Assembly: GCA_022578965.1 (NCBI GenBank)
Contig: MU400510.1
Span: 186,001 to 250,000, forward strand
From: Xylaria sp. FL1777
Taxonomy: Eukaryota; Ascomycota; Sordariomycetes; Xylariales; Xylariaceae
Length of the DNA stretch: 64,000 nucleotides
Direction: 5' to 3'
Below are positions 39,515-42,600 of this stretch, piece by piece (position 1 is the first letter of the stretch; every line of letters begins with the position of its first letter). A program made the position numbers and the translations under genes. The notes under the pieces are model-generated. The model was not told the origin of the DNA. It was given only the letters and a program-made list of their open reading frames with translations, and did not search any database.

Positions 39515-39650
39515 GCCCGGTTAGCTCAATCGGTAGAGCGTGAGACTCTTAATCTCAAGGTTGCGGGTGAGTACTAGACAGACAGACAAGAACAGTCACG
39601 GCGATGAAAATACTAATTCGTACGTCTAGGTTCGACCCCCGCATCGGGCT
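39515..39650 (+). tRNA. tRNA-Lys (anticodon CUU) with a 63-nt insertion in the T arm
   Basis: Read as 39515-39566 joined to 39630-39650, this gives a 73-nt cloverleaf without mismatches: acceptor GCCCGGT with ATCGGGC and discriminator T, D arm GCTC/GAGC, anticodon arm TGAGA/TCTCA with loop CTCTTAA (CUU, lysine), and T arm GCGGG/CCCGC with loop TTCGACC. The A box (TAGCTCAATCGG) and B box (GGTTCGACCCC, using the last G of the insertion) are intact in the DNA. The anticodon loop has no intron. The insertion has no run of four T that would stop RNA polymerase III; a T7 run at about 39697-39703 can serve as terminator. A pseudogene cannot be excluded, but the perfect stems argue against it. Confidence 0.85.
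39567..39629 (+). other. Spliceosome-type intron-like insertion inside the tRNA-Lys gene
   Basis: The 63 nt begin with GTGAGT, contain TACTAAT (39611-39617), matching the fungal branch-point consensus, and end with CTAG 12 nt later. Length and signals are the same as those of the protein-gene introns in this window. It splits the T arm between positions 52 and 53. The tRNA splicing endonuclease normally removes introns after position 37, so that route would not explain removal. Confidence 0.7.
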
Positions 39651-42600
39651 CAATTCCTGATGCTTCTCAGATCAACTGAGGATAACAACCAATATCTTTT
39701 TTTATCTTTCTTTGAGGCCATTCGCTAGTGATCCTCTAGTTTTTTTCTTTTTTTTCTCTGTTCTTTTCGTGCGGCACAGGATCAACGAGTAGATGTTGTA
39801 TATAAGAGTGGCGGTGGCCATCACTACCTTCTTTATCAAATCAGCATCTAGAGCCCCGTTGAGGCGACAACGTGCAGGCTCTATCGAGATTTCGTGCAGC
39901 CATGCTACCTCGACTCATTGGTAAGTAGGCATGTTGGTGCTTAAGATGGGTGGTAGCTGGGATACAACTCTGCCCAAGGCGCGACCATTCCATATTAACA
40001 CACGTAACATCCATGTTCCATGTCACGTCTATGCGACTATTTACCACCCATTGCAGAACGGTACGCTTATACAGAAAATCATGGCAGAAGCAACTGACAA
40101 AGCCGGATTTTCGGGGCAAGGAGGGCTCAAGCACAGGATGAACTCCCGCTCGATCCCAACCAGCCATTTATTTCAACGGAGGGCATAGAACGCAAAAAGG
40201 TCTGACCGACCGTATGATTCCACGAAAGCCTTGAGTTCACGGCCCAGGCCACGTCGTATTGTAGCACATTTAAAATTTAAAGAGCTGTGATAGGTATGTT
40301 CGCCCGTTCTGTCTCCTGCCACTGGGAATGATTCCTCCTGTGGAAACTACCACGGTACTCCTGGATGGTGGGACACAACTGAAGGAGGGGGAACACGTAC
40401 GGTATGGCTATCATGACATATGATCTATGGCATGGGGATGCCTGCAGTGTGAGGGTTGGCAAGGCGGGCACAATGACTCACGTAAACAAGCACCAGGTAC
40501 ACGGAGAGCAAAGGGATTGGTCCGCTCCCCGTTGCGGGCGTGGTCTTGCGATTTCCATGGACGGGCTCACGGATTCGTGCATGAGGACCAGTCTCTTTTT
40601 TCGGTCTCGCACGCAGTCGGCTGCTTGAAGAACGGCTATGTCACACGGAGGAGATATCGTACGACTACAGCACTACCGAAAATCGTACAGTCCATGCATG
40701 GGGATCTGCAACCGCCCAGTCCCGTACGGTGGATATCTTGGAAGCGATTGCGCGTCTGCCAGCTAATTGTACGCTACTTACTATAACACAGCCATGGGTA
40801 TGGCCAACTGTCTACGTAGTATAAGTGAGACGTAGCACGTACCGTCATCCTACTAAACAGAGAGGGCATAGACTGACTGGGAGAAGGAGGGAGGCTAAGT
40901 ACCGACAAGTCGGTGAGGTTGGAACCCAAGCAAACAACAAACCAAAAGTGTCAGCTGCCCAGTACACTATCTCCCTCGCTTCCGTATATGACATATAGCC
41001 TGACCTATTGGTTACCTACAGCCGTACAGTTCATTCCACAGCATGGAACATCCGGCTGAGACTGACACATCACCACTGTATAATCAAATTCGATGTGTCA
41101 GATCCGACAGATGCGAGCAATTCGAGCCCGCCCTGCCGGGTTTATCGGCCAGGCGTCCTTTTACTGGCACCTCACTCTACTACCTATCATGATATGTCAT
41201 CCGATAACTAGATCAAGACGAAAAAATATAGCTAAATATGATACAAATGGAGTGTTAATCGAATCCCGCCCGATAGTCAGTCAGCAGACTAGCCAAAATT
41301 TAGCTGTTTCGTCACACCTGCTGCTAAGAGATCGTAAGATTCACATTCATCTAACACAAGATTGGGCAAAAGCTGCTTGTACTAATACCCGAATCCAGTG
41401 CTCCGGACGATCTAGCATGCTGTCGTGGTGTGGGACATAGAAATGTGTAACAATTCCTACAGAAAAAGATATACGTGCTAGAACTTACCCAACAGTGCTA
41501 TTTTGGCCTCTTCGTGCAGCCGTCGGAATCGCCACATATGCCTGAATAAAATTATTCAGAAAGTGATCCTAACATGATCGGACAGCCGGTTTCTAGTCTA
41601 GTGCAATCGCAAATGTCATTCTCGGAGTGTATGCTAGGGAGAGTCTCTCGTATCTTGCATCTTTAGCTGTGGCTGATCTAGGGAGAGAAGCACGGCTATC
41701 TAAAGTACGGGATATCTTCGTCTGTCTTGGGAGTCCATATGCTATTATACAACAACACATTACGTGTCTTTCTCCCCTGAGTTTCGTATCCATCCCCTTT
41801 TTTCATGATTATGACTGCGACATTGAACGATTGCCCATCGTCCTAGCGTTTGTCTTGTGCTCCCCTCGTATTAGTTGTCAAGAATCCTTTCGCCGAAAGG
41901 GGGTGCAATCCTAATAATGCTCTCTTCGGCTACTGCGGCAAAAGACTGCACGATATTGTGTGGCTCCCTCATTTCTTGTTTGGGAGCTTTATATGAGCGA
42001 ATCTGAACAGAGATAGAAAAAGTGCCTTCCAAGACGTCTGTCTGTCTGTTCGACCGCAGTTCCGTGCGGAATATTAGGAAAGGCAATAAGAAAAGGAGTT
42101 CGACAGCTGTTGATGTAGCTCGACCGGTTGTTACATCGGGACCCTTTGAGCTCGGCTTACCGCAAGATATGTTAGTTGATGTTCACTTCCTTCCCGTGAG
42201 AAGTTTGACGTACCTGTCCATTATGCGTGCTGTTGCAACTTAAACTTGTGTTTCTAGGCAATACTTAGGCAAAACTTTTGATACCGTGCGTGAATCATGG
42301 CAGGGGATAAAACGTAGAATGCAAGAGGCAAAGAAAATGTGTGCTGTGTTGCGAAGCCATCTCCCTGCCTCTCTAAGGAGATAAAGGGGTGTAGTAGGCA
42401 GCTACGCCGTGAATGGGAACAATACGGTCAATGAAAAGAAAACGTGATTCTTCCCCCTTTTTGTGTATTCTTCAGCAAGGTTTACAAGCTTGAGAGAAGT
42501 CTCCGAGAGTAATCGCAATCATCTCATTACTGTCGTTCATCCCTCTTGACATGATGATGGCTAGTTCCCTTTGTCCTCTTTGTAGGCTTCATCGCCCAAC

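Follow-up and report, generated by a model that had tools for sequence, protein, structure and literature searches.

How is a nuclear tRNA matured when its gene is interrupted in the T arm by DNA that looks like an mRNA intron? The question is raised by a tRNA-Lys(CUU) gene of the fungus Xylaria sp. FL1777, which lies at positions 39515–39650 (plus strand) of the 64,000-nucleotide stretch of contig MU400510.1 analysed here, referred to below as the window, and whose T stem is interrupted by an insert of 63 nt that follows nucleotide 52. Nuclear tRNA introns are handled by a splicing endonuclease and a tRNA ligase, as summarised in the available part of a review of tRNA introns (PMC4090602). 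For the present case comparison of paralogous genes points to a different answer: with a probability that we put at about 0.8, four nuclear tRNA-Lys(CUU) genes of this genome have a T arm interrupted by a U2-type spliceosomal intron that would be removed by the spliceosome.

Structure of the interrupted gene

Exon 1 (39515–39566, 52 nt) covers tRNA positions 1–52 including the CUU anticodon, and exon 2 (39630–39650) adds a further 21 nt; all features of the locus given here are on the plus strand. When joined, by removing 39567–39629, they form a 73-nt tRNA-Lys(CUU), and the coordinates given in a preliminary description of this DNA proved exact. The regular 73-mer claimed there also stood, whereas the perfect stems did not, since the acceptor stem carries one G-U pair. 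Both exons were recognised by cmscan, with the Rfam tRNA model RF00005 scoring 51.7 bits on 39515–39650 (E 3.4e-8 for the window) and the insert being placed in the T loop; ARAGORN, run with the bacterial code, reported nothing. Two elements read from the sequence, TAGCTCAATCGG at 39522–39533 and GGTTCGACCCC at 39629–39639, we take, from their consensus, to be the A box and the B box, and the first G of the B box is supplied by the last G of the insert, as had been pointed out. A run of seven T, likely the Pol III terminator, follows at 39697–39703. The locus thus has a cloverleaf once the insert is removed, both internal boxes and a downstream T run, as a nuclear tRNA gene should.

The insert (39567–39629) is of spliceosomal type. 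It starts with a 5' splice site GTGAGT (39567–39572), contains a branch-point-like CTAAT (39613–39617), whose A at 39616 is the presumed branch nucleotide and lies 13 nt upstream of the insert end, and finishes with a 3' splice site TAG (39627–39629). The GTGAGT start, the TACTAAT sequence, the CTAG end and the lack of TTTT that had been listed for the insert are all present. Its boundary can slide by one base, as GCGG^GTG...TAG^GTT or GCGGG^TG...TAGG^TT, and GT-AG ends are obtained in the first register only.

Five tRNA-Lys(CUU) genes in the genome

A search of the whole genome for further copies, suggested in the preliminary description, covered 58.7 Mb in 588 contigs and yielded five tRNA-Lys(CUU) genes including the window copy. 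The same five were found with the first 25 tRNA bases, allowing up to three mismatches (control 0), and with a pattern extending from the D arm to a CUU or UUU anticodon (control 2). A looser Lys pattern matched 7 places, the five genes and one place each on contigs C1 and C12 (control 12); the latter two were rejected as tRNA genes, neither having an Rfam match.

Four of the genes, located on four contigs (C5, which holds the window, C8, C95 and C107), are interrupted at the identical T-arm base by inserts of 63, 58, 55 and 60 nt, respectively. Every one of these inserts begins with the identical GTGAGT, ends with TAG, lacks TTTT and contains a branch-like CTAAT or CTGAC that puts the presumed branch A 11–14 nt from the insert end. 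The fifth gene, at C7:531595 (L010, L091), has an uninterrupted T arm; its insert, of 39 nt, lies beside the anticodon, where canonical tRNA introns are located. The two kinds of insert never occur together in any of the five genes, and two Lys(UUU) genes that were inspected have canonical introns only. The preliminary description had named other intact tRNA-Lys(CUU) genes as a mark of a pseudogene at the window locus, and on this point the outcome is mixed: one gene lacks the T-arm insert, but it has a canonical tRNA intron. Since such a gene exists, it does not follow that the cell needs the four interrupted genes.

The five genes have identical exons (for C7 by eye, with the canonical intron left out). 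A 401-base query around the window gene matches the other copies solely within query positions 115–313, which comprise the gene and a 3' trailer, so that no flanks common to the Lys(CUU) loci are detectable; a form of the same trailer is also carried by the C7 gene. The C107 copy scores 31.3 bits in the tRNA model, with an alignment that stops inside the insert. A Lys 20-mer was absent from collections of viral and genome contigs, neither of which is fungal, so that this result has no bearing on fungi. Four stretches of the window, some of them unverified as genes, contain 62 AAG and 47 AAA lysine codons, a count on which no conclusion is based here.

Splice signals in dissimilar inserts

When GTGAGT and the last 20 nt are set aside, the insert cores are no more similar than shuffled sequences in all six pairs (p 0.43–0.97), whereas the final 20 nt are similar in five of the six (p <= 0.035; sixth pair p 0.31). 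Identical exons and kept signals, together with dissimilar cores, imply that exons and signals are what was retained. The identity of the exons could partly reflect gene conversion, which would have to end at the intron borders. When each of the four inserts was shuffled 20,000 times by letter, a leading GTRAGT occurred with a frequency of 0.00015–0.00065 and a terminal TAG with one of 0.012–0.018; CTRAY at 8–20 nt from the end was reached in 0.045–0.081, that is in 4.5–8.1% of cases by chance, which counts against it. Every one of the four copies has all three signals, more than chance would give. The argument for selection on the splice signals is drawn from four paralogues and, because of that relationship, the four inserts are not independent draws.

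For comparison, five host mRNA introns were mapped by protein continuity in two genes of the window, those for PI4K and for Nup82, the frame of the former matching a protein of Xylaria sp. FL1777 at 98% and that of the latter showing 93% identity to Nup82 of X. hypoxylon; 13 further Nup82 rows, at the protein end, were left out. The host introns measure 49–60 nt against 55–63 nt for the tRNA inserts. Four of the five have CTRAY at 10–17 nt from the end, with no branch motif matched in the fifth, and one starts with GTGAGT. There are also differences: the tRNA inserts end with TAG whereas none of the five host introns does so (they end with CAG or AAG), and TTTT occurs in two of the five host introns versus none of the four tRNA inserts. 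Judged from their sequences, the T-arm inserts resemble the host mRNA introns of the window, and in their GT...AG ends, branch motif distance and host-like length they have the properties of U2-type introns. The spliceosomal reading, already raised for the window gene, is supported by the paralogues, in which four copies keep splice signals between identical exons although the remainder of the inserts is dissimilar.

Other fates of the inserts

Alternatively, though in our view this is very improbable, the inserts might be introns of the tRNA type in a non-canonical position, excised by the Sen endonuclease or one of its relatives, with the exons joined by tRNA ligase. The bulge-helix-bulge motif consists of a 3-nt bulge, a 4-bp helix and a 3-nt bulge at the two cut sites. 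No such 3-4-3 arrangement was found in any of the four copies in either junction register, and a bulge-helix-bulge intron was rejected on this ground. With other bulge sizes no copy has a 4/4 inner helix; the looser sizes do give three of four inner pairs in C5, C8 and C95, and nothing at this level in C107. A Sen-type origin would leave unexplained the conserved GTGAGT, CTRAY and TAG in mutually unlike inserts, although Sen-type splicing presumably serves the same tRNA in this genome, given the insert at the canonical position in C7. The likeness of the T-arm inserts to canonical Sen introns consists in their presence in a pre-tRNA, of which the C7 paralogue provides the regular form; they differ in lying in the T arm, after nucleotide 52 and not after position 37, and in their mRNA-type splice signals.

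The parallels that can be named for such a mechanism are nucleomorphs and Cyanidioschyzon. In the accessible portion of the review cited above, T-arm introns are removed from tRNAs in the Guillardia theta nucleomorph, and the non-canonical tRNA introns of red algae are linked to bulge-helix-bulge motifs (PMC4090602). These nucleomorph and red algal T-arm and D-arm introns share with the Xylaria inserts the interruption of a T arm in a eukaryotic tRNA gene, but those of G. theta are given there as 3–24 nt long (PMC4090602), compared with 55–63 nt here and GTGAGT, CTRAY and TAG in addition. A group I or II self-splicing intron was rejected, there being no Rfam match to a catalytic intron family and a length of 63 nt. 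Among 4227 Rfam families searched with the window copy at E up to 5, the only matches were to the tRNA and, far under the gathering score of that family, to one CRISPR repeat.

It is comparably improbable that the inserts simply stay, the four genes being dead or giving an RNA whose T loop is very large, and that C7 is the sole supplier of tRNA-Lys(CUU). Insertions in the arms of eukaryotic tRNAs mostly affect one of many synonymous genes and are taken as pseudogenes, nucleomorphs and a red alga being the exceptions, in the consulted part of the same review (PMC4090602). The Xylaria genes resemble these cases, with their short D- or T-arm insertions, in having an arm insertion in a nuclear tRNA gene; they differ in that four of the five genes found are affected, at the same site and with conserved signals. 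The existence of C7 is compatible with such an outcome; dead genes, however, would decay, and the contrast between the exons, identical throughout the five copies, and the differing inserts and flanks disfavours pseudogenes and weakens the pseudogene alternative of the preliminary description, as does the retention of the splice signals. As to the enlarged T loop considered there, the T stem can pair around the insert in the cmscan alignments of C5, C8 and C95, and its predicted probability is 0.75 in unspliced C5 without the trailer, but in unspliced C8, C95 and C107 it is poorly formed even without the trailer (0.01–0.18), which weakens this reading.

Inserts in other tRNA and U6 genes

Removal by the spliceosome remains the preferred reading for the Lys(CUU) genes, and splice-signal patterns were used to search the genome for T-arm inserts of the same design, their scope being inserts with GTTCRA directly after AG. 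A pattern GTGAGT...AGGTTCGANNCC matched the four Lys copies and two other places, L055 and L056 (reversed-pattern control 2), which were rejected as RNA genes since no Rfam family reaches its cut-off in them. The version with GTAAGT had no match genome-wide. A pattern CTGAY...AGGTTCRANYCC matched only two Lys copies (control 0), and the CTAAY... version matched 21 places (control 2), namely the two remaining Lys copies, 18 places with a copy or near-copy of a repeat, and L100, which was discarded for want of an Rfam match. Within this scope the searches do not support a general invasion of tRNA T arms. The repeat is dispersed over C2, C5, C6, C9, C27 and other contigs, carries a B-box-like CTAATTGGGAGTTAGGTTCGATTCC and variants of it, and is possibly SINE-like; L056, at C166:31387, is one of its copies.

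A tRNA scan scored 63 of 3048 candidates and missed the Lys(CUU) genes on C7 and C107, so that the tRNA lists are lower bounds. Among its 59 non-Lys(CUU) tRNA matches, none of the 49 inspected has a T-arm insert, and the remaining 10 are 72 or 81 nt long.

Inserts of mRNA type were also found in U6 genes. The genome holds at least three U6 genes, a lower bound since 47 of 2820 candidates were scored, and two of these hold such inserts in the catalytic core, the gene on C52 (L107) being uninterrupted. In L106 (G000:C1:675236–675393, minus strand) a 58-nt insert, GTAGGC...GCTAAC...TATAG, lies between ACAGAGAAGAT and TAGCATGG and contains TTTT; it also holds GTTCGAATTC, which is B-box-like by its consensus. 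L108 (G000:C18, U6 match 120452–120548, minus strand, with the gene extending upstream) has two inserts, the first of 63 nt, GTAAGT...CTAAC...TAG, before ACAGAGAAG and the second of 58 nt after it; the second has CTAAC and TAG but starts with GAAAGT and not GT. With the inserts taken out, L106 and L108 are alike save for a short region close to the 3' end. Each of the seven inserts in tRNA and U6 genes ends with TAG, versus none of the five mapped mRNA introns of the window. As two of three U6 genes carry mRNA-type inserts, Pol III-type genes with such inserts are not a one-locus oddity in this genome.

A 3' end GCAACC(C)AATTTTT is common to the Lys genes on C8 and C95 and to both interrupted U6 genes. 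The corresponding GCAACC-AATTTTT pattern occurs at 11 places genome-wide, four of them in Lys or U6 genes (control 1); four of the remaining seven were examined and showed no evident RNA gene, with no Rfam match in L109–L111.

There is a precedent in Schizosaccharomyces pombe, whose U6 snRNA, made by Pol III, carries an mRNA-type intron close to its catalytic nucleotides, as stated in the accessible part of the source (PMC10484740). The Xylaria genome shows the same combination of an mRNA-type intron and a Pol III-type gene, with U6 inserts of 58, 63 and 58 nt and CTAAC before TAG; the Lys(CUU) genes differ in that the interrupted RNA is a tRNA and has to be exported from the nucleus as one, and in that a single site is shared by four paralogues. 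That the Lys genes are instead transcribed by Pol II, alone or additionally, with mRNA-like splicing of a capped RNA from which a tRNA or tRNA-like RNA is excised, is very improbable: Pol II RNA is the most natural setting for a spliceosomal intron, but the A and B boxes are intact, in each of the five genes the trailer is followed by a run of 5–8 T, none of the five loci has a frame of 130 or more codons between stops that crosses the tRNA, and U6 offers a Pol III precedent both in the consulted text on S. pombe (PMC10484740) and in the intron-bearing genes of this genome.

A conserved trailer downstream of the tRNA

A feature missing from the preliminary description is a conserved 3' trailer between tRNA and T run (39651–39696 in the window; alignment A1), which each of the five Lys(CUU) genes has. 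In these genes a run of at least four T first appears at +41 to +47 after the tRNA; for 46 other tRNA genes of the genome the median is +11, and five of them have it at 41 or more. Besides the four interrupted Lys genes, a genome-wide trailer pattern matched two places (control 7), which were rejected since they do not fold into the hairpin and have no Rfam match. The trailer itself matches no known RNA in Rfam beyond the CRISPR-repeat match below cut-off. Downstream of L068 (C8:198152–198253, a tRNA-Met by its anticodon) a stretch CAATTCCTTGATGCTTATC resembles the Lys trailer CAATTCC-TGATGCTTCTC, and two other inspected copies of this tRNA (L067, L069) are without a trailer-like stretch.

The trailer contains a hairpin, P3 (39664–39682), in which 39664–39670 pair with 39676–39682. 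Together with a 3-pair extension it has 49 of 50 cells paired and compensatory changes in three pairs among five related sequences. Its covariation score and paired-cell share were reached by 1 of 500 shuffles, the number of pairs with a two-sided change by 170 of 500 and the number of pair types by 500 of 500; sliding the register by +3 also gives three two-sided pairs, yet only 48% paired cells. On this comparative evidence the hairpin is likely real.

Both flanks of the hairpin are conserved and complementary to parts of the tRNA. The upstream flank, CC(T/C)GATGC, present as CCTGATGC at 39656–39663, could pair with GCATCGGG (39641–39648) on the 3' side of the acceptor stem as a possible helix P2, and the downstream flank CAAC(C), present as CAACC at 39686–39690, could pair with GGTTG (39559–39563), three bases before the 5' splice site, as a possible helix P1. 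When the five spliced forms are folded together with their trailers, the consensus is this alternative structure, in which trailer and tRNA are paired. In the four unspliced precursors the predicted probability of the acceptor stem falls from about 0.9 without the trailer to 0.02 or less with it. The alternative fold persists in the modelled spliced forms with trailer (acceptor stem 0.02–0.07 in the four copies and 0.53 in C7), so that the model predicts no flip on splicing.

The T stem of an ordinary tRNA fold would bury the 5' splice site, GCGG^G, and a fold that first opens this stem would therefore help. The trailer may thus pair with the 3' strand of the acceptor and with GGTTGC beside the 5' splice site, holding the T stem open until splicing. 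Shuffles of the flanks did as well in 12, 10, 19 and 27 of 400 cases for C5, C8, C107 and C95, and in 109 of 400 for C7; whole-trailer shuffles did so in 54, 52, 55, 85 and 158 of 400 (C5, C8, C107, C95 and C7). Moreover, the model predicts loss of the acceptor stem for 4 of 28 other tRNA genes as well when 43 nt of their downstream DNA are included, and the folding energy models leave out the tertiary contacts of tRNA. A trailer switch is, according to these shuffle tests, a weakly supported proposal. The compound idea, that the spliceosome matures most gene copies of one Xylaria tRNA-Lys isoacceptor and that the trailer is an RNA switch keeping the precursor from folding as a tRNA, and the 5' splice site open, until the intron has been removed, is speculative and, as a whole, rather doubtful.

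A possible maturation route

We infer Pol III transcription, spliceosomal removal and the order of the steps as follows. Pol III would transcribe the gene from its A and B boxes, the latter completed by the last G of the intron, through the hairpin-bearing trailer to the T run. The nuclear spliceosome would recognise GTGAGT, CTRAY and TAG and join GCGG to GTTCG, with the intron of 55–63 nt leaving as a lariat. A normal T loop would form only after splicing, and RNase P, RNase Z and CCA addition could then complete an ordinary tRNA-Lys.

We found no report of spliceosomal introns in tRNA genes in the accessible literature, outside which most subscription papers fall, and novelty is thus unproven. 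No word beginning with "spliceosom" occurs in the text of the tRNA-intron review (PMC4090602) or in the tRNAscan-SE 2.0 paper (PMC8450103), where non-canonical introns are, in the part available, treated for archaea.

If the spliceosomal reading is true, tRNA annotation can miss or misplace genes of this kind, as exemplified by the C107 copy with its 31.3 bits. Two maturation pathways that are treated as separate would be joined in one tRNA family, and Pol III transcripts besides U6 could be spliced like mRNA. On the compound idea with the trailer switch, which is rather doubtful, the inserts would represent a further kind of nuclear tRNA intron, in a lineage where, judging also by the intron-bearing U6 genes, spliceosomal introns have invaded Pol III genes, and decoding of AAG codons would be coupled to the state of the spliceosome. 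A tRNA family spliced in this way would also offer a tractable case for the entry of spliceosomal introns into non-coding genes.
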